Virus record (IMG/VR): IMGVR_UViG_3300049811_000087
Coordinates: 1-56,841 of that record
Direction: 5' to 3' (one strand)
DNA length: 56,841 nucleotides
From: a virus
How positions within the stretch are numbered: position 1 is the first letter of the stretch; each line of letters begins with the position of its first letter. The notes below the pieces were generated by a model. It saw only the letters and a list, made by a program, of their open reading frames with translations. It was not told the DNA's origin and ran no database searches. Position numbers and translations under genes: made by a program. Below, one piece after another: positions 10,224 to 56,841 of this stretch.

Positions 10224-10568
10224 ATGGAGACTAGCATATTAACAAGTACTAAAAAAGTATTAGGACTTGATGAAGGCTATGATGCTTTTGATCCGGATAT
10301 CGTCATGTTTATTAATGCCGCTTTATCAACCCTGAGTCAACTAGGCATAGGCCCAGAAGATTCGTTGGTTATAAGTGGCCCGGATGATGAGTGGGATGAT
10401 TTATTTATTCCAGATAACCAGCTTAGTCTGGTAAAAACTTACGTATTTTTGAAGACAAGGATGTTGTTCGATCCTCCTGGGACTCCTTTTCTTACTAATG
10501 CTATGAAAGAACAACTCCAGGAATACGAATGGCGCCTACAAGCGTTTGTTGAAACGGAGACAACATGA
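10224..10568 (+). CDS. head-tail connector-like protein
   Basis: A 114-aa protein with the helical layout of phage head-tail adaptor families (gp6/gp15-like): a DPDIVMFINAALSTLSQLG helix, an acidic loop, then VKTYVFLKTRMLFDPP and a C-terminal helix. It would form a ring under the portal. ATG at 10224 is preferred over TTG at 10218 because AAAGGAGG ends at 10217. The position before the terminase is unusual for a connector but recurs in related phages. Confidence 0.75.
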   Translation: METSILTSTKKVLGLDEGYDAFDPDIVMFINAALSTLSQLGIGPEDSLVISGPDDEWDDLFIPDNQLSLVKTYVFLKTRMLFDPPGTPFLTNAMKEQLQEYEWRLQAFVETETT

Positions 10569-10993
10569 CTCTCTCAACTCAAGAGTTTCTTGCGCATTAC
10601 GGCGTCAAAGGAATGAAATGGGGCGTACGGAAAGCGCCAGATAGATCGCGGTCTGCATCAAACTGGAAAGCTCGTAAAGACAAAGAACGTGCTGCAAAAC
10701 TTGAGAAGGCCAGCTCGAGTAAAAGAAATGCAGCAAAGAAGATGTCTGACGACGAACTTAAGGCTGCAGTACAGCGGCTTCAGTTAGAAAAACAGTACGT
10801 CGAACTTAGCCAACAGCCACAACAGTTAACTCGCGGACAAAAGTTTGCAAAAGATCTTGGAGACATTGCTGTTGAAGTGGCAAAGACTCAGATCAAAAAC
10901 ACAGCCAACGCCGTGTTAAAGAAAGAACTTGAAAAGCGTCTTGGGATTAAAACTGAACCTAAGAAAAAAAAAGTAAAGAAGGAAAAGACGTAA
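10565..10993 (+). CDS. HYGVKGMKWG-tagged, lysine-rich virion-region protein
   Basis: A 142-aa basic protein with the tag FLAHYGVKGMKWGVR at residues 8-22, a helical middle (MSDDELKAAVQRLQLEKQY) and a Lys-rich tail. The tag recurs at 12809, and its first six positions recur in the RNA polymerase-like protein at 53999. The position between connector and terminase suggests a head or packaged protein. An A9 run at 10964-10972 could allow a -1 frameshift giving a 162-aa form ending at 11052 that fills the gap before the terminase. Confidence 0.8.
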   Translation: MTLSTQEFLAHYGVKGMKWGVRKAPDRSRSASNWKARKDKERAAKLEKASSSKRNAAKKMSDDELKAAVQRLQLEKQYVELSQQPQQLTRGQKFAKDLGDIAVEVAKTQIKNTANAVLKKELEKRLGIKTEPKKKKVKKEKT

Positions 10994-11066: not shown

Positions 11067-12812
11067 TTGGGCTTATCGAATACCGCAGTCCCAAAGTATT
11101 ATGGTGAGTTTCGCGACGCTGTTCTTCGTGGAGAGATACCTGTAAATAGAGAAGTATCGCTTGAAATGAACCGGATAGATGACCTAATAGCCAACCCAAA
11201 CATCTATTACGATGATCAGGCTATTGATGGATTTATCAAATACTGCGAAATGGAACTAACTCTAACTGACGGCGGAGATCTCTACCTTTTAGACACCTTC
11301 AAGCTATGGGCTGAACAGATCTTCGGTTGGTACTACTTTGTCGAAAGGAGTGTTTATCAGCCAGGTCAAAATGGAAGTCCTGGAGGGTATGTTAAGAAGC
11401 TAATTAAAAAGCGCCTTACCACTAAGCAGTATCTGATCGTCGCACGAGGTGCCGCAAAGTCGATGTATGCGGCGTGTATTCAGGGATATTTTTTAAATGT
11501 TGACACATCAACGACACATCAGGTAACTACGGCCCCCACTATGAAGCAGGCCGACGAGGTTATGTCGCCGCTTAGAACAGCGATCACAAGGTCGAGAGGA
11601 CCTCTGTTTAAATTCTTGACAGAGGGCTCAATTCGAAACACGTCTGGGTCCGCTGCAGAGCGAGTCAAGCTTGCTTCTACGAAAAAGGGCATTGAGAACT
11701 TTCTAACGGGGTCCCTACTCGAGATTCGACCGATGTCGATCAATAAGTTGCAAGGGCTTCGCCCTAAAGTCTCAACAATTGACGAGTGGCTTTCTGGAGA
11801 CATCCGTGAAGATGTGGTAGGTGCTATCGAGCAGGGCGCATCCAAGATGGATGACTACTTAATTGTTGCGATCAGTTCTGAAGGAACAGTTCGAAATGGT
11901 TCTGGCGACACCATTAAGATGGAGCTTGCAGAAATTCTAAAAGGCGAGTATCAAGCTCCCCACATCTCCATATGGCACTATAAGCTCGACGATGTAGAAG
12001 AGGTTGCTGATCCCTCAACCTGGATCAAAGCCAACCCAAACCTAGGCAAAACCGTTACTTATGATGTTTACCACCTTGACGTTGAGCGTGCAGAAAAAGC
12101 CCCAGCGTCTAGAAACGACATCCTTGCCAAGCGCTTTGGGATCCCTATGGAAGGCTACACGTACTTCTTTACATATGAGGAAACCATACCGCATAGGTCA
12201 AGAGAGTTCTGGACAACACCTTGCGCTCTAGGCGCAGACCTTTCTCAAGGTGATGACTTCTGTGCGTTTACATTTTTGTTTCCTCTTGGCAACGGTAGTT
12301 TTGGAATAAAGACAAGAAGTTACATCACAACACTAACTCTTATGAAACTTCCAGCGGCAATGCGTATAAAGTACGAAGAGTTTATTAATGAGGGTTCCCT
12401 CCAAGTTCTTGATGGAAACGTCCTTGACATGATGGAGGTCTATGACGACCTCGACGAGTTTATAATCCAGAACGAATACGATGTTCGATGTCTGGGGTTT
12501 GACCCTTACAACGCCAAAGAGTTTGTGGCTAGATGGGAATCCGAAAACGGACCATACGGAATAGAAAAAGTAATTCAAGGCGCTAAAACAGAGTCGGTTC
12601 CTCTTGGAGAATTAAAGATTCTTGCCGAACAGAAAGCGCTTATATTTGACCAAGCGCTATTTTCGTTTGCTATGGGTAACGCTATTACTCTAGAAGACAC
12701 AAACGGTAATCGTAAACTTTTAAAGAAACGAGCCGAGGAAAAAATCGATAACGTTTCTGCTGCTCTAGACGCATATATTGCCTACAAAGCCAACAAGGAG
12801 GCCTTTGAATGA
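11067..12812 (+). CDS. terL: terminase large subunit
   Basis: A 581-aa packaging motor. The ATPase half shows a Walker A variant VARGAAKS (~126-133) and a Walker B STIDEW (~235-240); the nuclease half shows GADLSQGDD (~392-400), LGFDPYNAKE (~478-487) and a final acidic site KIDNVSAALDAY near 560-571. The length is normal for HK97-type terminases. The start is TTG with AAAGGGGGCGG upstream; no in-frame ATG exists before the conserved region. I see no separate small-terminase gene beside it. Confidence 0.93.
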   Translation: MGLSNTAVPKYYGEFRDAVLRGEIPVNREVSLEMNRIDDLIANPNIYYDDQAIDGFIKYCEMELTLTDGGDLYLLDTFKLWAEQIFGWYYFVERSVYQPGQNGSPGGYVKKLIKKRLTTKQYLIVARGAAKSMYAACIQGYFLNVDTSTTHQVTTAPTMKQADEVMSPLRTAITRSRGPLFKFLTEGSIRNTSGSAAERVKLASTKKGIENFLTGSLLEIRPMSINKLQGLRPKVSTIDEWLSGDIREDVVGAIEQGASKMDDYLIVAISSEGTVRNGSGDTIKMELAEILKGEYQAPHISIWHYKLDDVEEVADPSTWIKANPNLGKTVTYDVYHLDVERAEKAPASRNDILAKRFGIPMEGYTYFFTYEETIPHRSREFWTTPCALGADLSQGDDFCAFTFLFPLGNGSFGIKTRSYITTLTLMKLPAAMRIKYEEFINEGSLQVLDGNVLDMMEVYDDLDEFIIQNEYDVRCLGFDPYNAKEFVARWESENGPYGIEKVIQGAKTESVPLGELKILAEQKALIFDQALFSFAMGNAITLEDTNGNRKLLKKRAEEKIDNVSAALDAYIAYKANKEAFE

Positions 12813-13321
12813 GCAAAAAAGTAGAAGACTTCCTTGAACACTATGGCGTTAAAGGGATGAAGTGGGGTGTTCGCCGAAACAGAAGCGCCGCTTCAAAACT
12901 GAGCACAAATGCTAGAACAAACAACAAAGATGCGTACCCAGGACTTTCTACTAAAAAGTCTGGTCATGCTGGCAATACGCTAAGCACTTCCGGAGCAAAG
13001 AAAAATCTCCTTCGGAATACGGCACTTGACGCAGCTACAGCGGGTTTTCATAGGCGAGCTCGAGCAAATTCGGCTAAACGAACTTTAAAACGCCTTGAAG
13101 GAAAAACCGCCAACACCTCTACTTTTCGAGGCAGGCGTAAACAACGGAAGATTAATGAAGCTAAAGTTAATGCTGCTTTAACCTACGCTCTAGCAAAACC
13201 AAGGAAAAAGATCTACGTCACAAAAGACGGTCAAACCTCGGTTATTAAAGGCAAAAAGTTAGCCAAACAGATTTTAAAGAATAATACGCTAGGTTATGAA
13301 GATATTCGGCTTCGGCCCTAA
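12809..13321 (+). CDS. second HYGVKGMKWG-tagged basic protein
   Basis: A 170-aa very basic protein with FLEHYGVKGMKWGVRR at residues 8-23, then a Ser/Asn/Lys-rich linker and a helical Arg/Lys-rich body. The tag matches the 10565 protein at identical positions; the bodies are not alike. It sits between terminase and portal and overlaps the terminase by four bases. The charge would suit binding packaged DNA. Function unknown. Confidence 0.8.
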   Translation: MSKKVEDFLEHYGVKGMKWGVRRNRSAASKLSTNARTNNKDAYPGLSTKKSGHAGNTLSTSGAKKNLLRNTALDAATAGFHRRARANSAKRTLKRLEGKTANTSTFRGRRKQRKINEAKVNAALTYALAKPRKKIYVTKDGQTSVIKGKKLAKQILKNNTLGYEDIRLRP

Positions 13322-13550: not shown

Positions 13551-14804
13551 GTGGCAGTTCTAGATAGAGTTAAAAGTGCCTGGAATGCATTTAGGGATTC
13601 CGATCGAATTTGGACCTCCTCTAGCTCGCCAACGGGGTCTTCGTCCTTAACTCGGCCAGATCAAAATCGTTATCGTAACTACTATAGTGAAAAATCGATC
13701 ATTACCTCTATCTATACTCGAATGAGCATAGATGTAGCTAGCGTTGGGTTTAACCACGTAGAGTTGGATGAACAAGGCCGTTATCTGAAAGACAAAGACA
13801 GCGCTTTACAGAAAGCGTTGACTTTAGAAGCAAATATCGATCAAGGACCTAGGGCTTTTCGCCAAGACATCGCTATGACCTTATTTGACAAAGGGGTAGC
13901 GGCGATTGTTCCTGTAGATGCAACAAAAGATCCAAACACAAATGAAGTTTTTGATATTTACACGTTGCGTGTTGGCGATGTCCTTGAATGGTATCCAAAA
14001 CACGTAAAGGTTCGGGTTTGGAACGAAGCAAAAGGACTTAGAGAAGATATAACATTAGAAAAACGTTATGTGGCTATTGTGGAGAATCCTCTCTACGCGG
14101 TCATGAACGAACCTAATGGAACCCTACAGAGGTTGATTCGAAAACTAACGCTTCTTGACGCTGTTGATGAGCAGTCAGGCTCTGGTAAACTTGATTTGAT
14201 TATACAGCTGCCTTACGCCGTTAAATCTGAGGCCAGAAAGAAACAAGCCGAAGAGAGACGAGAGTCTATTGAGCTCCAACTCAAAGGTAGCCAGTATGGT
14301 ATTGCTTATGCTGACGCAACAGAAAAGATTACTCAGTTAAACCGTCCTGCCGAGAACAATCTTCTCCAGCAGATTGAGTACTTGACTAAAATGCTGTATG
14401 GTCAATTGGGTATAACAGAAGACATTATGAACGGTACGGCTGACGAAACTGCCATGCTAAATTACCATAATAGATCTATAGACCCAATTATTCAGGCTAT
14501 AACAGAAGCTATGCAGCGCTCCTTTATTGGACCGACGGGTGTCAGTAAACGCGAAAAGATACAGTACTTTAAGGACCCATTTAAACTTGTTCCGGTTAGT
14601 AGTCTTGCTGAGATTGCGGATAAGTTTACTCGTAACGAGATTCTAACCTCAAATGAGATTCGGCATTATATGGGTATTCCACCAGCTAAGGATCCTAAGG
14701 CAGATCAATTAGTCAATAGCAACATGCCTCAAACCGAGACAATTGCCCCGACTGAAACAACTCAGTCTGGTCTTTCTGTTGCTGATGTCGACGCAAAGAG
14801 TTAA
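13551..14804 (+). CDS. portal protein (HK97 type)
   Basis: A 417-aa portal that would form the dodecameric ring at the head vertex. Supporting features are order (after terminase, before protease-capsid), length, and typical segments: RYRNYYSEKSIITSIYTRMS near 40-60, EYLTKMLYGQLGITEDI near 280 and a C-terminal FTRNEILTSNEIRHYMGIPP. The GTG start follows AAGGAGGTGATG; the closer ATG runs into a stop. Confidence 0.9.
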   Translation: MAVLDRVKSAWNAFRDSDRIWTSSSSPTGSSSLTRPDQNRYRNYYSEKSIITSIYTRMSIDVASVGFNHVELDEQGRYLKDKDSALQKALTLEANIDQGPRAFRQDIAMTLFDKGVAAIVPVDATKDPNTNEVFDIYTLRVGDVLEWYPKHVKVRVWNEAKGLREDITLEKRYVAIVENPLYAVMNEPNGTLQRLIRKLTLLDAVDEQSGSGKLDLIIQLPYAVKSEARKKQAEERRESIELQLKGSQYGIAYADATEKITQLNRPAENNLLQQIEYLTKMLYGQLGITEDIMNGTADETAMLNYHNRSIDPIIQAITEAMQRSFIGPTGVSKREKIQYFKDPFKLVPVSSLAEIADKFTRNEILTSNEIRHYMGIPPAKDPKADQLVNSNMPQTETIAPTETTQSGLSVADVDAKS

Positions 14805-29189: not shown

Positions 29190-29219
29190 TAACAATAAAT
29201 ACAACGCTTATAATGAGAC
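29190..29219 (+). promoter_or_regulatory. repeated promoter copy 1
   Basis: A TAACA box is followed after 14 bp by TATAAT at 29209-29214 with CAACGC in the spacer and GAGAC downstream. The gene at 29238 starts 19 bases further on, with GGAAAGG between. Confidence 0.75.
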
Positions 29220-29659: not shown

Positions 29660-29691
29660 TGACAAAATTTACAACGCCTATAATGGGAGAG
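29660..29691 (+). promoter_or_regulatory. repeated promoter copy 2
   Basis: A TGACA box, 14 bp, TATAAT at 29679-29684, then GGGAGAG (one base off the consensus). It precedes a hairpin-rich leader and the membrane-protein operon that leads to the replication gene. Confidence 0.75.
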
Positions 29692-34165: not shown

Positions 34166-37100
34166 GTGGATTTTTATAATATCGTGGTTAAAGAAAAGAA
34201 AGATGGCGCACTGCAGATCCGCCCTGATTTCAAGGTTGGTAGGTCCAAAGATCTTATGACTCGTGGCGGGGCTTTCTATGCCATCTGGGACGAGGAAAAA
34301 GGTCTTTGGTCTACCGATATTTATGATGTTCAGCGCTTGGTAGACGCCGATCTATACAAGTACCAAGAAGAGATGCTTAATCGAGATGGGGTTAGCCCAA
34401 CCGTTGCTACACTGGAGTCCAACTCTACGAAGCTTTGGGATGAGTTCCAGCGGTTTGTTCGTAATAGCGGTAACAACAGCCACAATCTGGATGAGGTTCT
34501 GACGTTTGCTAACACCGAAGTCAAGAAGACTGACTACGTGAGTAAGCGCCTTCCATATTCTCTTCACCCAGGCAAGACGGACGCATGGGATCAGATCGTG
34601 GGTACGTTATATTCTGAAGAGGAGCGTGAGAAAATTGAATGGGCTATCGGCGCAGTGGTTTCAGGAGATTCTAAGCATATCCAGAAGTTCCTGGTTTTCT
34701 ACGGACCTCCAGGTTCTGGAAAGTCCACCATCCTCAACATTATCCAGAAGCTGTTCGACGGTTACACGGCGGTATTTGATGCCAGAGAACTCGCTGGCAA
34801 TAATAATGCTTTTGCCACTGCAGCCTTTAAGTCAAATCCTCTGGTCGCCATCCAACACGACGGAGATCTCTCCCGAATCTACGACAACACGAAGCTGAAT
34901 TCGATTGTTGCTCATGAGACTATGACGGTCAACGAAAAGTATCGGGCGCCGTTTGAGACCAAGTCAAACGCATTTTTGTTCATGGGAACAAACCTTCCCG
35001 TTAAGATTACAGACGCAAAGTCTGGTATTATTCGGAGGCTAATTGATGTTGTTCCTACTCAACGGACGATTGATCATAATACCTATCATATTCTCATGGA
35101 CCAGATTGATTTTGAGCTGGGAGCAATTGCTTATCTTTGTCTGGAACGATACTTGGCCCTTGGGAAGAATTATTATAGTTCGTATCGGCCAACTGAAATG
35201 ATGCTTCAGACGGACGTCTTCTATAACTTTGTGGAGGCGCACTTTGATATTTTCAAATTAGAAGACGGCGTCACCTTGAAGCGAGCTTGGACTCTTTACA
35301 AAGAGTTCTGTGCTGACACGGGAATCGAAAAGACTCTTCCCCAGTACAAGATCCGAGAGCACCTCAAGGATTATTTCGAAGAGTTTCATGATCGAATCAA
35401 GATAGATGGCGTAGACGTTCGCAGTTACTACAAAGGATTTAAACATTTGGCTCCTGGACCACCAAGGTCTCAGATGCCTGTTAAAACTGACGATCCTTAC
35501 GTTATTGAGCTTGGTGAACACCCCTCGGTATTCGATGAGATGTTCGCAAACCAGCCTGCTCAGTATGCAAACGAGGAAGGTACACCATCTAAGAAGTGGG
35601 AGAACGTAACCACAAAGCTTCGAGATATTGACACCTCGAAACTTCACTACGTTCAGGTGCCAAAAGAACATGTTGTCATTGATTTTGACCTGACCGATGA
35701 AGATGGAAACAAGTCGCTGGAAGCTTGTTTGGAAAAAGCAAAGACTTGGCCCGCAACTTATGCGGAATTGAGTAAAAGTGGTAATGGTCTTCATCTTCAC
35801 TACAACTATCATGGCGATGTTGAAGCGTTGTCTAACGTTTATGGGGTTGGGATCGAAGTCAAAACTCTTCTTGGTAATTCTTCACTGAGAAGGCAGCTAA
35901 CAAAATGTAATATGGTTAATGTTACGCCTCTTTACGAAGGGCTTCCAACTAAGGAGAAAAAGGTGATTGATGCTCAGAGCATAAAGAGTGAACGAGCGCT
36001 GCGAGATCTGATCTCCAGGAACCTTCGAAAAGAAGTTCATCCGGGGACAAAGCCTTCCATTGATTTCATCCACAAGATTTTGAGTGATGCGCACAACAAT
36101 GGGTTGTCTTACGACGTAAGAGACATGCGTGGCGATATTCTTAGTTTTGCTGCGATGAGTACTAATCATGCTACCGACTGCATCAAGTTGGTGCAAAAGA
36201 TGGAATTTGTCGGGCAGAACGAGATGCCCGTGATTACTTCAGCTGACGAGAAACCTTTGGTCTTCTTTGATGTTGAGGTATATCCTAATCTCTTTGTCGT
36301 TTGCTGGAAAGCCGAAGATTCTGCTGACGTTGCTAAGTTGATTAACCCGTCCTCGGAAGAAATTGAAGAGCTCCTTACCCATAAGCTTGTGGGCTTCAAC
36401 AACCGTCGATACGACAATCATATTCTCTATGCTCGATATCTTGGGTATTCGATTGACGAGCTTTATAACCTCAGCAACCGAATCATCAACGGAGGCTCAA
36501 GCCGAGATGTCATGTTTGGAGAAGCCTACAATCTTTCGTATGCGGATATTTACGACTTTAGCTCCAAAAAGCAGGGCTTGAAGAAGTTCCAAATCGAGCT
36601 GGGTATCCTTCACATGGAGCTCGATATTCCCTGGGATAAACCTGTTCCTGAAGACCTTTGGGATAAGGTCGTAACATATTGTCAGAACGACGTGATGGCA
36701 ACCGAAGCGGTCTTTAAGAATCGTATTCAAGACTTCAACGCCAGGAAGATTCTCGCCGAATTGTCGGGTCTTTCAGTTAATCATACCACGCAAGCCCATA
36801 CGGCTAAGATCATATTTGGTGATGATAAACGACCCCAAGATAAGTTTGTTTACACCGATCTAAGCAAAGAGTTCCCCGGTTATATATTTGACGGGAAAGA
36901 GAGTTACTATAAGGGCGAGATCACAGGTGAAGGTGGTTACGTATATGCTGAGCCGGGTATTTATGAGAATGTGGCGCTTCTTGACGTTGCGAGTATGCAT
37001 CCGACGTCCATTGAGTGCCTCGACTTATTTGGGCCGTATACGAGCAGATTCGCTGACCTTAAAGCGGCACGTTTGGCAATTAAGCATAAGGACTACGCAA

Positions 37101-37900
37101 CAGCCGGGCGCCTCCTGGACGGTAAGCTCGGACCGTTTGTCGGAGGCACTGATGAAGACCTGGAAGCTCTGTCTTACGCTCTTAAGATCGTAATCAACAT
37201 TGTCTATGGTTTGACCAGCGCTCGATTCGACAACCCCTTCAGAGATTTCCGAAACAAGGATAACATTGTCGCCAAGCGAGGCGCTTTGTTCATGATCGAT
37301 CTCAAAGAAGCGGTGCAAGATCGAGGCTTTACGGTTGCACATATTAAGACGGACTCCATCAAGATCCCGAACGCAACGCCGGAGATCATTGAGTTTGTCA
37401 CCCAGTTTGGTCGAGAGTACGGATACGACTTCGAGCACGAGGGAACCTATGACAAATTCTGCTTGGTCAACGATGCGGTTTATATTGCTAAAGAAGATAA
37501 TCACTGGAATGCTGTTGGGGCTCAGTTTCAACATCCGTACGTCTACAAGACTTTATTTACGCATGAGCCGATTGAATTCGAGGATTACTGCGAAGCCCGA
37601 AGCGTTATTCAAGGGGTCATGTACCTCGACTTCGTTGGGGACGGCAATCTCTCCGATTTCAAGCACGTCGGAAGGACTGGAATGTTCGTTCCAGTTAAAT
37701 CCGGAGGCGGCTCGCTTCTTAGAGTCAAGGATGAAAAAGCCTACGCCGTGACAGGGACCAAAGACTATAAGTGGGTCGAGTCTTCTGTTGCTAAGGAAAA
37801 CCCAGACATTGAGGTAGACTACTCATATTTCGAAGACCTTGTTACAAAGGCCAAAGAAGCAATTGAGAAGTTTGGCTCTTTTGATGAGTTTGTGAGTTAA
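34166..37900 (+). CDS. replication polyprotein: SF3 helicase + PrimPol-like + 3'-5' exonuclease + family B DNA polymerase
   Basis: A single 1244-aa replisome protein. Residues ~130-430: D5/SF3-type helicase, Walker A FYGPPGSGKST (178-188), AIQHDGD (~228-234), sensor-like MGTNLPVK (273-280). Residues ~490-590: archaeo-eukaryotic-primase-like core, VVIDFD with Asp506/Asp508, and SGNGLHLHY (538-546). Residues ~698-860: DnaQ-type exonuclease, FDVE (Asp702, Glu704), VGFNNRRYDN (742-751), YCQND (Asp842). Residues ~935-1110: family B palm, LLDVASMHPTS (Asp940), KIVINIVYGLTS (1007-1018), KTDS (Asp1063). All catalytic positions are present. GTG start after AGAAGGGAGG. Confidence 0.92.
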   Translation: MDFYNIVVKEKKDGALQIRPDFKVGRSKDLMTRGGAFYAIWDEEKGLWSTDIYDVQRLVDADLYKYQEEMLNRDGVSPTVATLESNSTKLWDEFQRFVRNSGNNSHNLDEVLTFANTEVKKTDYVSKRLPYSLHPGKTDAWDQIVGTLYSEEEREKIEWAIGAVVSGDSKHIQKFLVFYGPPGSGKSTILNIIQKLFDGYTAVFDARELAGNNNAFATAAFKSNPLVAIQHDGDLSRIYDNTKLNSIVAHETMTVNEKYRAPFETKSNAFLFMGTNLPVKITDAKSGIIRRLIDVVPTQRTIDHNTYHILMDQIDFELGAIAYLCLERYLALGKNYYSSYRPTEMMLQTDVFYNFVEAHFDIFKLEDGVTLKRAWTLYKEFCADTGIEKTLPQYKIREHLKDYFEEFHDRIKIDGVDVRSYYKGFKHLAPGPPRSQMPVKTDDPYVIELGEHPSVFDEMFANQPAQYANEEGTPSKKWENVTTKLRDIDTSKLHYVQVPKEHVVIDFDLTDEDGNKSLEACLEKAKTWPATYAELSKSGNGLHLHYNYHGDVEALSNVYGVGIEVKTLLGNSSLRRQLTKCNMVNVTPLYEGLPTKEKKVIDAQSIKSERALRDLISRNLRKEVHPGTKPSIDFIHKILSDAHNNGLSYDVRDMRGDILSFAAMSTNHATDCIKLVQKMEFVGQNEMPVITSADEKPLVFFDVEVYPNLFVVCWKAEDSADVAKLINPSSEEIEELLTHKLVGFNNRRYDNHILYARYLGYSIDELYNLSNRIINGGSSRDVMFGEAYNLSYADIYDFSSKKQGLKKFQIELGILHMELDIPWDKPVPEDLWDKVVTYCQNDVMATEAVFKNRIQDFNARKILAELSGLSVNHTTQAHTAKIIFGDDKRPQDKFVYTDLSKEFPGYIFDGKESYYKGEITGEGGYVYAEPGIYENVALLDVASMHPTSIECLDLFGPYTSRFADLKAARLAIKHKDYATAGRLLDGKLGPFVGGTDEDLEALSYALKIVINIVYGLTSARFDNPFRDFRNKDNIVAKRGALFMIDLKEAVQDRGFTVAHIKTDSIKIPNATPEIIEFVTQFGREYGYDFEHEGTYDKFCLVNDAVYIAKEDNHWNAVGAQFQHPYVYKTLFTHEPIEFEDYCEARSVIQGVMYLDFVGDGNLSDFKHVGRTGMFVPVKSGGGSLLRVKDEKAYAVTGTKDYKWVESSVAKENPDIEVDYSYFEDLVTKAKEAIEKFGSFDEFVS

Positions 37901-39546: not shown

Positions 39547-39575
39547 CAAAATCTACAACGCCTATAATGAAGAGA
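39544..39575 (+). promoter_or_regulatory. repeated promoter copy 3
   Basis: TAACA, 14 bp, TATAAT at 39563-39568, then GAAGAGA. It drives the gene at 39652 through a hairpin leader. Confidence 0.75.
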
Positions 39576-46254: not shown

Positions 46255-46286
46255 TAACAAAATTCACAACGCTTATAATGAGAGAG
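46255..46286 (+). promoter_or_regulatory. repeated promoter copy 4
   Basis: TAACA, 14 bp with CAACGC, TATAAT at 46274-46279, GAGAGAG. It opens the micro-gene array. Confidence 0.8.
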
Positions 46287-46610: not shown

Positions 46611-46642
46611 AAACAACTTTTACAACGCCTATAATGAGAGAC
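46611..46642 (+). promoter_or_regulatory. repeated promoter copy 5
   Basis: AAACA, 14 bp, TATAAT at 46630-46635, GAGAGAC; directly behind the terminator. Confidence 0.8.
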
Positions 46643-47072: not shown

Positions 47073-47101
47073 CATTTTTCGCAACGCTTATAATGAGAGA
47101 C
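47070..47101 (+). promoter_or_regulatory. repeated promoter copy 6
   Basis: TAGCA box overlapping the upstream stop, 14 bp, TATAAT at 47089-47094, GAGAGAC. Confidence 0.8.
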
Positions 47102-47329: not shown

Positions 47330-47361
47330 TAACATATTTCACAACGCCTATAATGAGAGAC
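47330..47361 (+). promoter_or_regulatory. repeated promoter copy 7
   Basis: TAACA, 14 bp, TATAAT at 47349-47354, GAGAGAC. Confidence 0.8.
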
Positions 47362-47599: not shown

Positions 47600-47631
47600 T
47601 AACATTTTTCGCAACGCTTATAATGAGAGAC
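47600..47631 (+). promoter_or_regulatory. repeated promoter copy 8
   Basis: TAACA, 14 bp (GCAACGC variant), TATAAT at 47619-47624, GAGAGAC. Confidence 0.8.
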
Positions 47632-47819: not shown

Positions 47820-47851
47820 TAACATTTTTCGCAACGCTTATAATGAGAGAC
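47820..47851 (+). promoter_or_regulatory. repeated promoter copy 9
   Basis: TAACA, 14 bp (GCAACGC variant), TATAAT at 47839-47844, GAGAGAC. Confidence 0.8.
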
Positions 47852-48080: not shown

Positions 48081-48112
48081 TAACATTATCTACAATGCTT
48101 ATAATGAGAGAC
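48081..48112 (+). promoter_or_regulatory. repeated promoter copy 10
   Basis: TAACA, 14 bp (CAATGC variant), TATAAT at 48100-48105, GAGAGAC. Confidence 0.8.
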
Positions 48113-48311: not shown

Positions 48312-48343
48312 TAACATGTTCTACAACGCCTATAATGAGAGAC
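48312..48343 (+). promoter_or_regulatory. repeated promoter copy 11
   Basis: TAACA, 14 bp, TATAAT at 48331-48336, GAGAGAC. Confidence 0.8.
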
Positions 48344-48590: not shown

Positions 48591-48622
48591 TAACAAAAAC
48601 TACAACGCCTATAATGAGAGAC
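48591..48622 (+). promoter_or_regulatory. repeated promoter copy 12
   Basis: TAACA, 14 bp, TATAAT at 48610-48615, GAGAGAC. Confidence 0.8.
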
Positions 48623-49451: not shown

Positions 49452-49480
49452 CAGGTTTTACAACGCTTATAACGAGAGAC
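49449..49480 (+). promoter_or_regulatory. repeated promoter copy 13
   Basis: TAACA overlapping the upstream stop, 14 bp, TATAAC at 49468-49473 (one base off), GAGAGAC. Confidence 0.75.
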
Positions 49481-49730: not shown

Positions 49731-49740
49731 AAGGAGCTCA

Positions 49741-49775: not shown

Positions 49776-49776
49776 G

Positions 49777-49808
49777 TCACATTATTCACAACGCTTATAA
49801 TGAGAGAC
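49777..49808 (+). promoter_or_regulatory. repeated promoter copy 14
   Basis: TCACA, 14 bp, TATAAT at 49796-49801, GAGAGAC. Confidence 0.8.
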
Positions 49809-49826
49809 AACCATAAGGAGACTAAG

Positions 49827-50039: not shown

Positions 50040-50048
50040 ATCAAAAAG

Positions 50049-50079
50049 GGATGGCCCCTAACAAGGGCTTTCTCTTTTG
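50049..50079 (+). terminator. intrinsic terminator (array type)
   Basis: GCCC-CTAACAA-GGGC followed by TTTCTCTTTT; closes the array. Confidence 0.8.
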
Positions 50080-50114
50080 CAATGACTATTATTTTTAGTC
50101 GTATAGGGAAACAA

Positions 50115-50390
50115 ATGGAAGAAACAATACAAGAGTATATTGTACGGTCGTTTGAAAAAGCTTTTATTGACACTAATTGGTTAAAAGGTTATTTGTGTTT
50201 ACGCTGTCATCCAAAAGGTTTGCTTACGGACGACCGTCCAGATGGAACGACATGGTGCCCGTATTGTGGTAAAGATCCGCTTATGCATGGGCCTGAAATC
50301 CCGGTAAAACCTATTAAAGAAAAATTAAAAATGCGAGGAAGTAGAGCTACAGCCATGTGGGTCGATGAGATTTATAGGATGGATATATGA
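50115..50390 (+). CDS. zinc-ribbon-like small protein
   Basis: A 91-aa protein with YLCLRCHPKG and TTWCPYCGKDP: two CxxC pairs spaced like a zinc ribbon. ATG 50115 follows AGGGA; an in-frame ATG at 50082 abuts the terminator and has no ribosome-binding site. Codons turn A/T-ending, unlike the array. Confidence 0.65.
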   Translation: MEETIQEYIVRSFEKAFIDTNWLKGYLCLRCHPKGLLTDDRPDGTTWCPYCGKDPLMHGPEIPVKPIKEKLKMRGSRATAMWVDEIYRMDI

Positions 50391-50572
50391 AAGCTATTGA
50401 GTTATTTCACATGTTAGGTGACGTTGGTGTTTATAATAACCAGCGGTTAAGCGAATATAAAGTAGTAGGGCCTGATGGTCGATCAATTTCTGGCGTTCAT
50501 TTTAATCATGAAAAAAAACAAGTAATTCTTCGTCAAAGAAACATTAAAGTTGAAAATCGAGTTGATTTATGA
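50387..50572 (+). CDS. 61-aa small protein
   Basis: MKAIELFHMLGDVGVYNNQR..., ends NIKVENRVDL. Four-base overlap with the previous gene. Unknown function. Confidence 0.65.
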   Translation: MKAIELFHMLGDVGVYNNQRLSEYKVVGPDGRSISGVHFNHEKKQVILRQRNIKVENRVDL

Positions 50573-50590
50573 AGTCTATGGAGGAATTTA

Positions 50591-51070
50591 ATGACTAGAA
50601 CACGAACTGAACAACCATTACAAATGGGAGCGCGTAAAAAAGCTCGTCGTCTTCATAAAGTGGAAAGCATGATTGCCGAACTTCAATCTGAATATGAAGA
50701 ATTAAGAGCTGATCTCTTAGACTGGAAATGGCGTGAGTCTAAGCGTCTTGGTGTTGATGTTCCCGCCAATGCTCTTTTGTTAGACATTCTTGAGCTTATT
50801 GAAATAACGGAGGATGACAAATGGCTTTGGTTAGGTGTTACTAACAACAAAAACCTGCCGACCATTCGGTATCGAGATGGTCAAAAGGCTCACGAGCGCT
50901 CTGTTGTGCGCGTGCTTGCTGAGTTTTTTGAAATCATTGATGAAGACTGGGAAGGCACGTTGTATCCTACAAATGGTACTGACGATGTAAATCCTTGGCA
51001 CCGGGAATTGAGAGCTCTTCCTGAAGGTAAGTTTAGAGGAACTCCTAGAGGAGTCTATAAATTTGAGTAG
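50591..51070 (+). CDS. coiled-coil protein with a partial HNH-like region (tentative)
   Basis: A 159-aa protein: basic front, coiled coil near 20-50, then WLWLGVTNNKNLPTIRY and AHERSVVRVLAEFF, which resembles the first half of phage HNH nucleases (W-W-G..NN...). The HNH catalytic residues do not follow, so it may be a remnant or a DNA-binding relative. Confidence 0.55.
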   Translation: MTRTRTEQPLQMGARKKARRLHKVESMIAELQSEYEELRADLLDWKWRESKRLGVDVPANALLLDILELIEITEDDKWLWLGVTNNKNLPTIRYRDGQKAHERSVVRVLAEFFEIIDEDWEGTLYPTNGTDDVNPWHRELRALPEGKFRGTPRGVYKFE

Positions 51071-51073
51071 GAG

Positions 51074-52276
51074 ATGACTATGGCCGAAGTAGAACTAAGA
51101 CCACATCAAGAGGAAGCAGTAAAGAATCTAGCTAACGGTAAAATCTTGTATGGCGGTGTGGGTAGCGGGAAAACAAGAACAGTACTAGCATACTACAGAG
51201 AAAAGGAGTCACCTCGTGACATCGTCGTCATCACAACTGCGAAAAAGCGTGACAGTCTCGATTGGGAAAGAGAGGCCGCAAGGTTTGGAATATCCACAGC
51301 TTCTGAGTATACTTCAGACGGCGCTCTCCTTGTGGAGTCATGGAACAACATTGGAAAGCTTGAGCATCTACGAGACCGATTCTTCATTTTTGACGAACAG
51401 CGACTCGTGGGTAATGGAGCTTGGGTTAAGTCATTCCTCAAAATTTCCAGAAACAACCGATGGGTTCTTCTCAGCGCTACCCCCGGAGATTCGTGGATGG
51501 ATTACGCCCCTGTCTTCATAGCCAATGGGTTCTACAAAAACATTACTGAGTTTAAGATGAAGCACGTCATCTATGAAGCATTCTCACGTTACCCTAAAAT
51601 CAAAGGGTACTATAATGAATCTAGACTCGAGATTCTCAGGAACGACGTGTTGGTGGAGATGCCTTATGAACGTCACACTACTCGTATGTTGAACTATCTT
51701 GAGGTGGATTACAACCATAATCTGTTTAACACGGTGTTTCTACGTCGCTGGAATTATGTGGACGACAAGCCAATTAAAGATATTGCTGAGGTCTTTAGGC
51801 TGATGCGGAGAGTCGTCAATTCTCACCCGTCAAGACTTCACATGATTCGAAAGCTTATGACGTGTCATGACAAATTGATTATATTCTACACTTTTAATTA
51901 CGAACTTGATATCCTGCGAGAGTTAAGTTCAGAGATTACGGTTGCTGAGTGGAACGGACATAAGAAAGAACCAATCCCAGATACTGACAAATGGCTTTAT
52001 CTTGTACAGTATACGTCGGGTGCTGAAGGTTGGAATTGTACGTCCACGAACGCAATGATCATGTATTCTCTGACATATTCATACAAGAATTTCGAGCAAG
52101 CACAAGGTCGAATTGACCGCCTAGACACCCAATATGACACGCTTTACTACTATATCTTGGCGTCAAATTCGGTGATTGATCGTGGAATTCGAAATGCGTT
52201 GTCCCGAAAAAAAAGCTTCAACGAGCGTAAATTCTACGATAATTTGATAGATTCTTTCGAATTTGAAGAATGTTGA
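51074..52276 (+). CDS. SF2 DEAD/DEAH-type helicase
   Basis: A 400-aa helicase. Motif I GGVGSGKT (~27-34), motif Ia region VVITTAKKRDS, motif II FFIFDEQ (~103-109; DEQR rather than DEAD/H), motif III LLSATPG, motif V SGAEGWNC and motif VI QAQGRIDRLDT (~358-368). It should unwind DNA or remodel protein-DNA complexes in replication or recombination. It lies immediately before the candidate origin. Confidence 0.9.
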   Translation: MTMAEVELRPHQEEAVKNLANGKILYGGVGSGKTRTVLAYYREKESPRDIVVITTAKKRDSLDWEREAARFGISTASEYTSDGALLVESWNNIGKLEHLRDRFFIFDEQRLVGNGAWVKSFLKISRNNRWVLLSATPGDSWMDYAPVFIANGFYKNITEFKMKHVIYEAFSRYPKIKGYYNESRLEILRNDVLVEMPYERHTTRMLNYLEVDYNHNLFNTVFLRRWNYVDDKPIKDIAEVFRLMRRVVNSHPSRLHMIRKLMTCHDKLIIFYTFNYELDILRELSSEITVAEWNGHKKEPIPDTDKWLYLVQYTSGAEGWNCTSTNAMIMYSLTYSYKNFEQAQGRIDRLDTQYDTLYYYILASNSVIDRGIRNALSRKKSFNERKFYDNLIDSFEFEEC

Positions 52277-52555
52277 AAAAAAAGTCGTTCAAAAACGACG
52301 CCGCTATATAGTAGAAATGGGGTATAATTTGAGTGTAAATGGGTATGAAAGTGCATGAAAGTAGTCGAAAACGCAATATTTTGTGGTGGGGCGTCGGCGT
52401 CATATATTTTTTGTAAAAACTTTATATATTTTTATACCTCTATACGACCTATATGGTGGTGTACGTAGTATAAGGGTGACATTTTATACAAAACTTTTTG
52501 AACCCCTAAATTTACCAAAAACGACGCCTCACCACAAAAGATAGGAGATTTTCTT
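52277..52555. other. AT-rich repeat-bearing intergenic region, candidate replication origin or control region
   Basis: There is no gene here. Contents: hairpin GTCGTT-CAAA-AACGAC (52284-52299); a direct repeat CAAAAACGACGCC at 52290 and 52517; an 18-base inverted repeat, TTTTGTGGTGGGGCGTCG (52379-52396) with 52522-52539 (one mismatch); ATGAAAGT twice near 52346-52362; and an A/T-rich core about 52400-52455. The right arm ends just before the ribosome-binding site of the next gene. Iterons around an A/T-rich core beside a helicase gene suit an origin; an operator pair for the next gene is the alternative. Confidence 0.5.
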
Positions 52556-53074
52556 ATGAGAGGACGATGGAGACCAATTCCAGACTTCCCCGAATACCTT
52601 GTGAACGACCATGGTCAGGTCTATAACACACGTACAGATTCGCTTATGGCGGAAAGCACAACAAGACAAGGAGACCTTAAAGTAACTTTGTCAAAAAACG
52701 GAGAAAGAGTAACCAGATCTGTTAGGGTTTTAGTTGCCGAAGCCTTTGTCGCTAAACCACCAACAGTAGAAGGATTTCATAAGTCTTCTATCCCTGACAC
52801 GGTTATAGTCTTAGATAATGATAAAGACAATTTAATCGCTTCAAACTTAGCTTGGCGTCCAGCCTGGTTTGCATGGAAATACGCAAGACAGTTCCAACCG
52901 TCGTATAGACCTGAGTTCTATTCAAAGCGTGTTATGAATCTCTCAACACGACGTACATATTCTTCAATTTTAGAAGCTGGTGTAACGGAAGGCCTTTTAT
53001 TTGATGACATCTTTAGATCAGCAGTTACGGGTTGTCATATCTACCCAACACAAACGAATTACGTTTTTGTATGA
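52556..53074 (+). CDS. NUMOD4-type protein with degenerate HNH
   Basis: A 172-aa protein. It begins WRPIPDFPEYLVNDHGQVYN, the NUMOD4 DNA-binding motif of homing endonucleases, then RSVRVLVAEAFVAKPP as in HNH homing proteins. The expected NHxDGDK...N...NLxW reads VLDNDKDNLIASNLAW, so the catalytic His is missing. It may be a decayed homing nuclease or a regulator that kept only DNA binding. ATAGGAG is upstream. Confidence 0.75.
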   Translation: MRGRWRPIPDFPEYLVNDHGQVYNTRTDSLMAESTTRQGDLKVTLSKNGERVTRSVRVLVAEAFVAKPPTVEGFHKSSIPDTVIVLDNDKDNLIASNLAWRPAWFAWKYARQFQPSYRPEFYSKRVMNLSTRRTYSSILEAGVTEGLLFDDIFRSAVTGCHIYPTQTNYVFV

Positions 53075-53083
53075 CGTATACGG

Positions 53084-53115
53084 TAATTCCTTCTACAACG
53101 TATATAATAGAGAGA
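53084..53115 (+). promoter_or_regulatory. repeated promoter copy 15 (divergent)
   Basis: TAATT, 14 bp with CAACGT, TATAAT at 53103-53108, AGAGAGAG. It precedes the nuclease-RNA polymerase operon. Confidence 0.7.
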
Positions 53116-53118
53116 GAG

Positions 53119-53149
53119 GTGCTAAAACAGCATTTCTTTCCTATTTTCT
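53119..53149 (+). promoter_or_regulatory. leader hairpin plus T-rich run (attenuator-like)
   Basis: GTGCT-AAAAC-AGCAT (the outer pair is G-T) followed by a T/C-rich tract, just downstream of the promoter and before GGAGG at 53150. Third example of this layout. Confidence 0.45.
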
Positions 53150-53161
53150 GGAGGAATACCG

Positions 53162-53473
53162 ATGCGAGAGTCCAAATATCAGCGTGACCTCATTGAGAGG
53201 ATCTACCACATTTTACCTGGGTCCGTGGTCATCAAGAATGATCCGACTCGGATACAAGGCATTCCAGATTTGCTGGTTCTTTGGGAAGATAAGTGGGCGA
53301 TGCTTGAAGTTAAGCGTTCAATTTATGAAGATTCTGAACCGAATCAGGAATACTATGTTGCAGAAATGGATCGGATGTCATTTGCAGCTTTCATCTACCC
53401 GGAAAACGAAGACGAGGTTCTAGATGCGCTTCAATCAGCATTTGGACTTAAAAGACAAGCACGCATTTCTTAG
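53162..53473 (+). CDS. VRR-NUC-type nuclease / Holliday junction resolvase-like
   Basis: A 103-aa protein with the VRR-NUC core: KNDPTRIQGIPDLLVLW (Asp of the PD motif), WAMLEVKRS (the ExK) and a Gln/Glu-rich helix. Small stand-alone VRR-NUC proteins act as structure-specific nucleases in phage recombination. CTGGAGGAA upstream. It overlaps the next gene by 50 bases. Confidence 0.85.
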   Translation: MRESKYQRDLIERIYHILPGSVVIKNDPTRIQGIPDLLVLWEDKWAMLEVKRSIYEDSEPNQEYYVAEMDRMSFAAFIYPENEDEVLDALQSAFGLKRQARIS

Positions 53474-53984
53474 TCCTAGTAACTATCATTGGATCAACTA
53501 TAGTGATGCCAAACTAGAAGCTAGGTATACAGCAGCGCAAGCAGCTCGACGAGGAACTGATCTTCATTTATTGGCCCACGAAGCCATTCGATTAGGTGTC
53601 AAATTAGCAAAAAGTAATTTAGCATTGTCGACATACGTCAATGATGCAATTAACTACAAGATGACTTCAGAACAAATCTTGTATTACTCAGACAATTGTT
53701 TTGGTACAGCAGATACTATTTGTTTTCGTCGAAATAAATTAAGGATTCATGACCTGAAAACCGGCGTAACACCAACCAGTGAAAAACAACTGGAAGTTTA
53801 TGCTGCTCTATTTTGTTTAGAGTATGATGTGTTTCCTTATGATATTTCGATAGAATTGCGGATCTATCAAAATGATGAAATTCGCGTATTTGACCCAGTT
53901 CCGGAAGCAATCGAATCTATTATGGGTGTTATAGTTGAGCACAACAACCGAATTGAAGAGTTTCGCAGACAACAGAATCTTTGA
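53424..53984 (+). CDS. Cas4/RecB-like PD-(D/E)XK exonuclease
   Basis: A 186-aa protein: RRGTDLHLLAHEAI (the His-bearing first motif), FGTADTICFRRNKLRIHDLK with the catalytic Asp, Asp and Lys, and KQLEVYAALF (the Q-motif of RecB-type nucleases). A Cas4-style Cys cluster is not evident, so I call it RecB-like. It is probably a recombination or DNA-end-processing exonuclease. Confidence 0.8.
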   Translation: MRFNQHLDLKDKHAFLSPSNYHWINYSDAKLEARYTAAQAARRGTDLHLLAHEAIRLGVKLAKSNLALSTYVNDAINYKMTSEQILYYSDNCFGTADTICFRRNKLRIHDLKTGVTPTSEKQLEVYAALFCLEYDVFPYDISIELRIYQNDEIRVFDPVPEAIESIMGVIVEHNNRIEEFRRQQNL

Positions 53985-53998
53985 GAAGGAGGGGTAAC

Positions 53999-56653
53999 GT
54001 GTATATTGACGAACAAACATATCTTGCACATTATGGTACCCCTCGACACTCGGGACGGTATCCTTGGGGATCTGGAGGAGATCCTCGAAACAGCCGATCA
54101 TTTTTAGAAATGGTAAAGGACCTTATTAAACAAGGGTTTACTGAAAAAGAAGTTGCCGATTCTTTTGGAATCTCAACAACTGATCTTCGAGCCTATAAGT
54201 CCATTGCCAAAGCAGAAGTTAAACAAGAGCAAATTCTTCAAGCTGAGAAACTTAAAGCAAAAGGCGTTTCTGATCTACAAGCAGCTAAGCAGATGGGCAT
54301 CCCTACGTCCACCTACAAAACGCTTCTACTGCCCTCGGCAAAACTTAAGCAAGACGCCATTCAAGTCGCCGTCGAGGTGCTCAAGAATCAGGTAGACAAA
54401 GTAGAATATCTTGACGTTGGCGCAGGAACAGAAATGTATTTGGGCCTAAGTCCTCAGCGTTTGAAACAAGCTCTTACAATCCTAAAAGCTGAAGGATATA
54501 ACATTTATTCAAATATCCCAGTTCCTCAGCTTGGCACCAGCCATGACACTAAGCTTCGTGTGTTAACAACTCCAGATAAAACATGGACAGACACTAGGCT
54601 TAATGTAGAGAAAGTAAAGCTTCTAAATGAACATCTTGATGATACAGGAAGAGGGTCTTTAGGAATTCTTCCGCCCATTGCAATAAATCCAAATAGGGTT
54701 GCTGTTAAATATGGGTCTGAAGGTGGAGCCAATGCGGACGGTGTGATGTACATTCGTCCTGGCGCTAAAGATCTTGATCTTGGCGGAAAAACTTATGCTC
54801 AGGTTCGAATTCAAGTTGGTGATAAACATTATCTTAAAGGTATGGCCCTCTACAAAGATGACCTTCCTGACGGTGTTGACATTTTGTTTAATACCAATAA
54901 AGAAAGCACAGGTAACAAACTTGATGCTTTGAAGAAGCTTGAATCAGATCCCGACAATCCCTTTGGTGCCCAGATTCGGCGTCAGATCACAAAGCTAGAT
55001 CCAAAGACTGGTAAAGAAGTCAATGCGTCAGCAGTTAACATAGTTAATGAAGAAGGTGGTTGGAGTGATTGGTCTAGAAGTATCGCTTCTCAGGTCCTCT
55101 CTAAACAGTCTCCTTCATTGGCTAGAGAAAGACTTGACGTAACCTACAAGCAAAGGAAAGCCGATCTTGATGAGATCATGGCTTTGACTAATCCAACAGT
55201 TAAAAAGAAATTGTTAGAAGAGTTTGCTGAAGGTACCGATGCTGCATCAATCCATCTTAAAGCGGCAAGTCTTCCTAAACAAGCTTGGCATGTTATCTTA
55301 CCAGTTAATTCTTTGTCTGAAACAGAAGTGTACGCACCTAACTATGACAATGGGCAACGAGTTGTGTTGATTAGGTATCCTCATGGAGGAACGTTTGAAA
55401 TACCTGAACTCATTGTCAACAACAGTAACAGAGAAGCTCGTCGACTTCTTAAAGACGCTAAAGATGCTATAGCTATTAACGCTAAGGTAGCAGAGCGTCT
55501 GTCTGGTGCAGACTTTGATGGCGACACTGTGTTGGTTATACCAAATGAATCTAACAAGATCAAATCGTCTAAGCCTCTACAAGGATTGATTAACTTCAAT
55601 CCAAGAGAAACTTATCGAGAGTATCCAGGCATGCCGGTTATGAAGAACACTCAGCAACAAATGGGTGAGATCTCTAATCTAATTACCGACATGACACTTA
55701 GGCAAGCTTCTAGAGAAGAACTAGAGCGAGCAGTTAAGCATTCAATGGTTGTTATTGACGCTGAGAAACATCGCCTTAACCACAAGCAATCATACAAAGA
55801 TCATGGCATCAAGGCACTGAAAGAAAAGTATCAAGCCAAACCGGATGGTACTGCAGGTGGAGCCAGCACTCTAATCTCTAGAGCCAAGAAGAAACCACCA
55901 ATCCCTGAGGTTCGGCTAAGGAAGCAAAGTGAAGGCGGACCTGTAGACAAGAAAACTGGCGAATTAGTCTATGTTCCAACAGGTAGAATAGATAATCGGA
56001 CAGGCAAACCAGCTAAAGTTCGAGGCTTTCTTACTGAGATGGAACTGGCTAGAGATGCTAGTACCCTATCATCGGGTACTCGTATGGAGAATCTCTATGC
56101 AGACCACGCCAATAAACTTAAGACAATGGCTAATCAAGCCAGACTCGAGAGCATCCGTACACCACGTGCACCCTACTCCAGGTCAGCCAAACAAGTATAC
56201 TCAAAGCAAGTAGATTCTTTAGAGCGCAAACTAACCGAGGCTAAGCTTAACGCCCCCCTTGAACGCCGTGCCCAGATCCTAGGTAATGAGATTCTTAAAC
56301 AAAAGAAGGCTGACAATCCAGCATTGGATCCTTCATCTGAAAAGAAACTAAAGTCTCAAGCCTTGGAAGAAGCACGTAATAGGACAGGCGCTAAAAAGAA
56401 GAAGATTGACATCACCCCTGACGAATGGGCAGCCATTCAAGCAGGTGCTATTAGTGATACTAAACTAAAGTCAATCCTTGACAACGCTGACATGGATAAG
56501 GTTAGAGAGTATGCAACTCCTAAGAACAAACTTTTGATGTCACCCAACAAGGTGGCTCGAGCGCAAGCTCTGCTTGAGAAGTATACAAGGGCTGAAGTAG
56601 CAGCTCGTCTTGGTGTTTCCCTTTCCACATTAGACAGATCGTTAGGAGGATGA
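53999..56653 (+). CDS. single-chain RNA polymerase-like protein with DFDGD motif and virion-type tag
   Basis: An 884-aa protein. A tag-like start, YLAHYG at 8-13 then TPRHSGRYPWGSG; helix-turn-helix-like segments at ~46-66 (TEKEVADSFGISTTDLRAY) and ~88-108, and another at ~863-882 (TRAEVAARLGVSLSTLDRSL). A candidate first barrel at ~225-300 has ADGVMYIR and HYLKGMAL. A second, at ~450-516, has VVLIRYPHGGTFEIPE and RLSGADFDGDTVLVIP, with DFDGD (505-509) as the metal-binding triad of beta'-type polymerases. This suggests a two-barrel polymerase like YonO and crAss-like phages. GTG at 53999, after AAGGAGGGG, places the tag at the same positions as in 10565 and 12809. Confidence 0.85.
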   Translation: MYIDEQTYLAHYGTPRHSGRYPWGSGGDPRNSRSFLEMVKDLIKQGFTEKEVADSFGISTTDLRAYKSIAKAEVKQEQILQAEKLKAKGVSDLQAAKQMGIPTSTYKTLLLPSAKLKQDAIQVAVEVLKNQVDKVEYLDVGAGTEMYLGLSPQRLKQALTILKAEGYNIYSNIPVPQLGTSHDTKLRVLTTPDKTWTDTRLNVEKVKLLNEHLDDTGRGSLGILPPIAINPNRVAVKYGSEGGANADGVMYIRPGAKDLDLGGKTYAQVRIQVGDKHYLKGMALYKDDLPDGVDILFNTNKESTGNKLDALKKLESDPDNPFGAQIRRQITKLDPKTGKEVNASAVNIVNEEGGWSDWSRSIASQVLSKQSPSLARERLDVTYKQRKADLDEIMALTNPTVKKKLLEEFAEGTDAASIHLKAASLPKQAWHVILPVNSLSETEVYAPNYDNGQRVVLIRYPHGGTFEIPELIVNNSNREARRLLKDAKDAIAINAKVAERLSGADFDGDTVLVIPNESNKIKSSKPLQGLINFNPRETYREYPGMPVMKNTQQQMGEISNLITDMTLRQASREELERAVKHSMVVIDAEKHRLNHKQSYKDHGIKALKEKYQAKPDGTAGGASTLISRAKKKPPIPEVRLRKQSEGGPVDKKTGELVYVPTGRIDNRTGKPAKVRGFLTEMELARDASTLSSGTRMENLYADHANKLKTMANQARLESIRTPRAPYSRSAKQVYSKQVDSLERKLTEAKLNAPLERRAQILGNEILKQKKADNPALDPSSEKKLKSQALEEARNRTGAKKKKIDITPDEWAAIQAGAISDTKLKSILDNADMDKVREYATPKNKLLMSPNKVARAQALLEKYTRAEVAARLGVSLSTLDRSLGG

Positions 56654-56841
56654 TGGCTACCGAGTCTATGGTCACCACTACAGACAATCCATTCAATCCT
56701 TTTGATGAGTTCCGTCAATGGTATGCTTTTGATGTTGCACATGGGTACCATACAGCATCCCTAGTGGCACGTCTCACCTTCACTTCAGATGAATTGTCAG
56801 AGCTAGATCAACGTCAGGCTAGAGAAATGGCTGTTGATGAG
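56650..56841 (+). CDS. partial gene downstream of the RNA polymerase-like gene
   Basis: The start (ATG at 56650 or 56653) overlaps the previous stop; TTAGGAGG is upstream. At least 63 residues: TDNPFNPFDEFRQWYAFDVA, HGYHTASLVARL, then an acidic helix. It runs off the window edge. Not recognised; it may belong with the polymerase or with packaging. If the map is circular, its remainder should be sought beyond the edge. Confidence 0.7.
   Translation, partial: MMATESMVTTTDNPFNPFDEFRQWYAFDVAHGYHTASLVARLTFTSDELSELDQRQAREMAVDE

Follow-up and report, generated by a model that had tools for sequence, protein, structure and literature searches.

The window, which is the whole 56,841-nucleotide stretch analysed here (IMG/VR virus record IMGVR_UViG_3300049811_000087), raises the question of what the large protein encoded near its end does, how it would reach the host cell, and which genes it would serve. 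The reading that we favour, with a probability of roughly 0.6, is that the protein is a virion-delivered RNA polymerase (RNAP), packaged by means of a head tag and transcribing the early genes from a promoter of its own.

The reading frame was open on the + strand from a GTG start at 53999, preceded by a strong ribosome-binding site (GAGAAGGAGGGG), to a stop at 56653. This corresponds to the 884-aa product that the first-pass annotation had proposed to be a single-chain two-barrel RNAP. The features assigned to it were as follows:

53999..56653, + strand: predicted single-chain two-barrel RNA polymerase, 884 aa (phrog_4291); full-length family match, fold match to QDE-1 and P74-26 gp62
54023..54076, + strand: N-terminal tag LAHYGTPRHSGRYPWGSG, residues 9–26, predicted disordered; identity 0.76, low pLDDT, found in nearly all 165 homologues
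54095..54343, + strand: two helix-turn-helix (HTH) units, candidate DNA-binding region, residues 33–115; Pfam HTH matches, model helices
54737..54898, + strand: predicted region of the first (beta-like) barrel, containing the invariant pair K280-G281, residues 247–300; invariant columns, model strands
55505..55525, + strand: predicted catalytic loop GADFDGD, residues 503–509; invariant aspartates, match to the YonO family phrog_8308
56543..56644, + strand: C-terminal HTH, residues 849–882; best Pfam HTH_23 stretch, model helices

The phrog_4291 profile matched this frame with 1210 bits over residues 9–888 (numbered from an upstream TTG), a similarity far above chance. Homologues were found in 250 of 50,697 phage records, and all but one (249/250) covered at least 80% of the query. 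The hosts of these phages included Arthrobacter, Gordonia, Streptomyces, Curtobacterium, Rhodococcus, Microbacterium, Lactococcus, and Faecalibacterium; overall, the family occurred in hundreds of phages of Gram-positive hosts and also in many gut prophages. The family is already known, under the name 'RNA-dependent RNA polymerase' in PHROGs and RefSeq, and its members are usually labelled as HTH or 'DNA-binding protein', hypothetical protein, or 'RNA-dependent RNA polymerase'.

The active-site motif GADFDGD, VVLIRYPHGGTFEIPE, and the first-barrel motifs DGVMYIR (residues 247–253) and HYLKGM (residues 277–282) were all located where the first-pass annotation had placed them, with the first aspartate codon of the triad at 55511 and the barrel motifs approximately 225 residues before it. 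The motif was first compared with the beta' subunit, but its context RYPHGG...SGADFDGD is nearer to the branch of RNA-dependent RNA polymerases (RdRPs) and YonO than to the beta' sequence NRAPTLHRLG. In a family alignment of 39 diverse homologues, drawn from viral and bacterial contigs, D505, D507, D509, S502-A504, G508, K280, G281, R459, P461, and H462 were invariant, and F506 was nearly so. This conservation bears on the idea that the protein is a degenerate, inactive polymerase relative acting solely as a DNA-binding structural head protein. The deposition of the Lactococcus phage 1706 homologue as a structural protein and the frequent annotation of homologues merely as HTH proteins would fit that idea, but the catalytic aspartates, K280, and the surrounding residues do not vary across these diverse sequences, and the DFDGD region is among the most conserved of the protein; we thus regard it as extremely improbable.

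The AlphaFold2 model of the protein (pLDDT 80.9, pTM 0.66) placed DFDGD in a loop between a helix (residues 495–500) and a strand (residues 510–515), in keeping with the active-site role first proposed for it, and placed K280-G281 in a strand pair. The fold search suggested by the first-pass annotation returned only two-barrel polymerases among the top matches. Against solved structures in the PDB, Foldseek matched QDE-1 (E 9e-9), the non-virion RNAP gp62 of P74-26 (E 2e-6), and plant RDR2 (E 1e-4), and P23-45 gp64 was matched in a viral structure library; the global TM-scores against solved RNAPs were low (0.24–0.31). The profile phrog_8308, whose family is defined by YonO of SPbeta, matched residues 443–598 only (E 3.3e-7). 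It is on this profile that the homology to YonO rests, and hhalign of the family alignment against YonO alone gave a probability of 1% and no full-length alignment. Searches of solved structures by single sequence and by profile returned only HTH or low-complexity matches and the DFDGD stretch of the P23-45 tape measure (E 0.35). Based on the phrog_8308 match and the fold matches to QDE-1, P74-26 gp62, RDR2, and P23-45 gp64, the assignment as a single-chain two-barrel RNAP is near-certain as far as the predicted fold is concerned. By its profiles, the protein has a catalytic region related to that of YonO, yet belongs to a separate family (phrog_4291).

The Pfam scan detected HTH_23 in three stretches (E 2.7e-8), in agreement with the three HTH-like segments noted at first pass, while the RdRP family PF05183 scored 15.2 bits (E 0.009), under its gathering cut-off of 23.8. 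We infer that the enzyme is probably a DNA-dependent RNAP. A true RdRP working on RNA of the phage or the host, for instance in silencing or counter-defence, would be in line with this weak Pfam match and with the nearest solved fold, QDE-1, which is able to use both RNA and DNA templates. It is nevertheless very unlikely in a double-stranded DNA phage whose polymerase carries HTH DNA-binding units and is linked to a DNA promoter element (described below), and the homologue YonO is DNA-dependent (PMC5467207).

Several partial relatives of the protein were also observed. Two small ORFs (138–147 aa; G085:C1:18708-18902 and G086:C1:51321-51515) matched residues 550–614 alone, where conservation is highest apart from the catalytic loop. 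A 202-aa ORF (G088:C1:2563-2805) matched the N-terminus, including the tag and HTH units (model positions 4–81), without a polymerase. Short frames in four contigs (G013:C1:16954-17538, G021:C1:6412-6693, G056:C1:18160-18441, and G057:C1:28630-28911) matched only residues ~37–218 or 119–213, some with an internal TAG, and represent relatives of the stretch preceding the first barrel or what remains of it.

The N-terminus offers a clue to how the enzyme might reach the cell. Residues 1–32 were predicted to be disordered (pLDDT <50), and yet residues 9–26 were among the highest-identity windows of the whole protein, with a mean pairwise identity of 0.76, compared with 0.71 for the DFDGD region and 0.39 for the HTH region. 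The peptide was present in nearly all of the 165 homologues. Matches to a regular expression for tags like HYGVKGMKWGVR numbered 137 in non-RNAP ORFs of 65 loci, where shuffled sequences would give none; these sites correspond to the 25-aa peptide DUF7211 (PF23847), to which Pfam assigns no function. Using hhalign, the tags of the RNAPs aligned with those of DUF7211 with a probability of 89.5%, whereas 30 column-shuffled controls reached at most 9%. The two are alignable over LxHYG, and DUF7211 has GMKWGVR where the RNAP tag has SGRYPWGSG. This similarity was detected by hhalign only; PF23847 was not reported for the RNAP of the window in the Pfam scan, and one homologue scored 17.8 bits, below the cut-off of 27. 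In the window, two DUF7211 proteins flank the terminase gene, and the genes relevant to the head and the lineage were as follows:

10565..10993, + strand: small DUF7211-tagged protein (tag LAHYGVKGMKWGVRK), immediately 5' of the terminase (PF23847, E 1.4e-14)
11067..12812, + strand: terminase large subunit (phrog_9, E 2e-112)
12809..13321, + strand: small DUF7211-tagged protein (tag LEHYGVKGMKWGVRR), flanked by the terminase and the portal (PF23847, E 4.4e-15)
13551..14804, + strand: portal protein (phrog_12, E 1.3e-39)
34166..37900, + strand: primase-polymerase of the same phage lineage (phrog_4210, 1909 bits)

DUF7211 was present in all 17 RNAP contigs (17/17), and the tagged proteins of relatives were of head-region and effector type, including a portal protein, 2'-5' RNA-ligase-type enzymes, and proteins with papain-fold domains. 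At one locus (L083:2113-5235), a 2'-5' RNA-ligase-type (2H) domain was fused ahead of the RNAP, with the tag in between. Related 2H domains have been argued to be packaged in the head because they are fused to MuF and portal proteins (PMC9503650). In the reading favoured here, the peptide HYG...SGRYPWGSG would direct the RNAP to the head, as a diverged version of the DUF7211 tag found on head-region proteins; virions would thereby contain a few copies of the enzyme, which would reach the cell along with the DNA. Separately, five DUF7211-tagged proteins had a papain-fold domain of the glutamine-deamidase type (Pfam Gln_amidase) and are possible injected effectors, and a non-RNAP protein (L132:19939-20553) began with HGGPGSGRYPKGSG, a tag resembling the RNAP form. 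Other parts of the window contained a 667-aa ORF (14858-16861) in which a prohead protease and an HK97-type major capsid protein are apparently fused (TIGR01543 and TIGR01554, both below cut-off), and a protein of 626 aa (4592-6472) that is encoded close to the tail-fibre genes and might be a tail carbohydrate esterase; it has an alpha/beta-hydrolase domain (BD-FAE, Peptidase_S9).

Database records provide a second line of evidence for a virion location. In the record of Lactococcus phage 1706 (EU081845), the depositors annotated orf75 and orf7 as 'structural protein'; orf75 is a full-length homologue, 38% identical and with the same tag, and orf7 bears two tags. The labels probably stem from the mass spectrometry reported by Garneau et al. 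2008 for phage 1706. The record of ReqiPepy6 gp106 repeats the 'structural protein' note of 1706 gp75. Since orf62 and orf71, which lie outside the structural region, share the label, the structural list of 1706 may contain contaminants.

The co-occurrence of tag and RNAP was also considered as a functional link, which was weakened because the terminase and DNA polymerase gave the same host counts; within one phage lineage, the RNAP is inherited jointly with the tag, the terminase, and the DNA polymerase, and the association of RNAP, tag, and promoter element is thus partly one of descent. Two tagged contigs of 54–57 kb (G002 and G003) had neither the RNAP nor the promoter element, and one of them was also without the DNA polymerase of the lineage.

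Which genes the enzyme would serve is suggested by a repeated sequence in the early region. The window contained 14 same-strand copies of TTTTACAnnnCCTATAATGAGA ahead of early genes, and its intergenic regions shared the 22-bp sequence TACAACGCYTATAATGAGAGAC, with 13 matches on the + strand where 0.01 were expected. The copies, together with a weak one below the matrix threshold, were located as follows:

29197..29218, + strand: early promoter element
29667..29688, + strand: early promoter element
39551..39572, + strand: early promoter element
46262..46283, + strand: early promoter element
46618..46639, + strand: early promoter element, exact consensus
47077..47098, + strand: early promoter element
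47337..47358, + strand: early promoter element
47607..47628, + strand: early promoter element
47827..47848, + strand: early promoter element
48088..48109, + strand: early promoter element
48319..48340, + strand: early promoter element
48598..48619, + strand: early promoter element
49456..49477, + strand: early promoter element
49784..49805, + strand: early promoter element
53091..53112, + strand: degenerate copy upstream of the exonuclease-RNAP genes (14-mer cluster)

De novo scans of 14 relatives recovered related elements in most of them, and a joint alignment gave the consensus yTCGCAnnWWWWACAnnnCCTATAATGArA. A matrix built on a leave-one-genome-out basis, with the tested genome excluded, detected the element in 20 of 20 RNAP phages and prophages (5–17 main-strand sites in 19 and three in the twentieth), compared with 0–0.2 sites in shuffles and one site in total in five control phage sequences. 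The sites lay approximately 21 nt upstream of a start codon with a ribosome-binding site, and such a site and start were found within 45 nt downstream of 61 of 80 elements (control, 14%). An earlier view, based on strict patterns, that Firmicutes prophages were without the element was rejected, as the matrix finds a diverged version there. Where 3 kb of sequence upstream of the RNAP was available (117 loci), a same-strand element lay within that distance at 104 loci (opposite strand, 0; shuffles, 1), and in most relatives the element precedes the RNAP operon. In the window, no matrix match of at least 6 bits was found at 50–54 kb, and none lies within 3 kb upstream of its RNAP.

The association also held when the element was the starting point. 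In 2.9 million viral contigs searched with exact patterns of the element alone, the RNAP was present in 45 of the 51 hit contigs of at least 40 kb (28/32 and 17/19, weak short RNAP matches being left out of the count), against the 250 in 50,697 phage records given above. Four element-bearing contigs without the RNAP all held the DNA polymerase of the lineage (4/4), three of them held the tag (3/4), and with lengths of 40–44 kb they are probably truncated; G080 and G085 are further element-bearing contigs without a full RNAP. In the window, terminator-like hairpins with T tails were in excess at 38000-56841 (29 versus 16.2) and often lay just ahead of the elements, forming an array of terminator, promoter, and small gene at 46–50 kb. 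Three tRNA genes (Lys-TTT, Ile-TAT, and Leu-TAA) were located among the early genes at 42314-45784.

Because TATAAT is the bacterial -10 consensus, the host RNAP could read the element, perhaps with a phage activator. The elements would then be host sigma-A promoters maintained by a phage activator or repressor acting on the upstream half (TCGCA, WWWWACA), and the RNAP would be real and maybe virion-borne; that the element is common to one phage lineage agrees with this. However, no TTGACA stands at 16–18 nt in the consensus, in which 14 nt separate the conserved TCGCA from TATAAT, and host-type promoters were at chance level (sigma-70 consensus sites: 30 versus 30.2 expected in the early region, and 15 versus 21.7 in the late part scanned). 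Moreover, the same ~30-bp element was found in phages of Streptomyces, Gordonia, Arthrobacter, Bifidobacterium, Lactococcus, and gut Firmicutes, and the sigma factors of such hosts are not known to share an element of this kind. That the element is conserved although the RNAPs are only ~38–54% identical to that of the window, and although the sigma factors of the hosts differ greatly, favours a reader encoded by the phage, and we consider reading by the host enzyme doubtful.

The distribution of the element also bears on the possibility that the protein is a YonO-like non-virion RNAP, transcribed by the host after infection and serving the late (structural) genes, with the tag an unrelated structural peptide. 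YonO, its homologue by profile, does transcribe the late genes of SPbeta (PMC5467207), and the RNAP gene adjoins the head module (locus L004). The only strong repeated promoter-like element, however, marks the early region and was absent from the structural and lysis part of the window (1–29 kb), and it usually lies upstream of the RNAP operon itself; in addition, the tag resembles those of the head region, and 1706 orf75 is labelled structural. A late-gene role is accordingly unlikely.

Under the virion-delivery model, the RNAP would recognise the phage-specific promoter yTCGCAnnWWWWACAnnnCCTATAATGArA, probably via its HTH units, and would transcribe the early region; in most relatives it would also transcribe the operon that encodes it; transcripts from the element at 46618 would be expected to begin just 3' of TATAATGAGA. 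Delivery in the virion would solve a start-up problem, in that one promoter that is not of host type precedes the early genes and also, in most relatives, the operon of the RNAP itself. More broadly, with the balance about even, a large lineage of phages and prophages of Gram-positive bacteria, with hosts from Lactococcus to Streptomyces, could bring a stand-alone two-barrel RNAP into the cell by a short modular head tag, shared with other cargo, and begin infection from a dedicated ~30-bp promoter.

To our knowledge, virion-delivered two-barrel RNAPs occur in few systems, namely giant phages (multisubunit enzymes), crAss-like phages, and a Thermus tape-measure fusion. The present family is represented in ~250 sequenced phages as well as in many prophages of the gut, and its members mostly bear the labels HTH protein or RdRP; what seems new is the tag and the early promoter, whose presence on RNAP phages seems unreported so far. 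Literature searches found no paper on the tag peptides and none tying this RNAP family to a promoter. If the model is correct, it would account for transcription start-up in these phages, give DUF7211 a function as a head-cargo tag, and provide a small RNAP-promoter pair, accessible in culturable phages of Streptomyces, Arthrobacter, Gordonia, and Lactococcus, that could serve as an orthogonal transcription tool.

Among known systems, YonO is likewise a single-chain phage RNAP with an aspartate triad, but it belongs to phrog_8308, has DNDGD instead of DFDGD, and serves late genes, whereas the element here marks early genes. QDE-1 and the eukaryotic RNAi polymerases, which gave the best solved-structure match (E 9e-9), act in RNA silencing and have no tag or phage promoter. 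T4 Alt, MuF fusions, and polyvalent proteins illustrate the principle of loading enzymes into the head for injection (PMC9503650, PMC5512222); in the passages searched in both papers, neither a protein with the tag nor a YonO-type RNAP appeared. The crAss-like phage phi14:2 carries gp66, a single-chain two-barrel RNAP, in its virion for early genes (cited in PMC10770324); gp66 is part of a very large virion protein of Bacteroidetes phages, and it was not among the best solved-structure matches listed. The Thermus phage enzymes, P23-45 gp96 (virion) and gp64 (non-virion) and P74-26 gp62, are single-chain two-barrel RNAPs like that of the window (PMC10770324). They differ in that gp96 is fused to the tape measure and gp64 is not found in virions, while the RNAP of the window stands alone as one chain, equipped with HTH units and a short tag. 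The virion RNAP of P23-45 reads a phage-specific element before the pre-early genes, and relatives without that RNAP also lack the motif (PMC10770324). The same kind of genomic association is seen here, and P23-45 is a precedent for a virion RNAP linked to an early motif.
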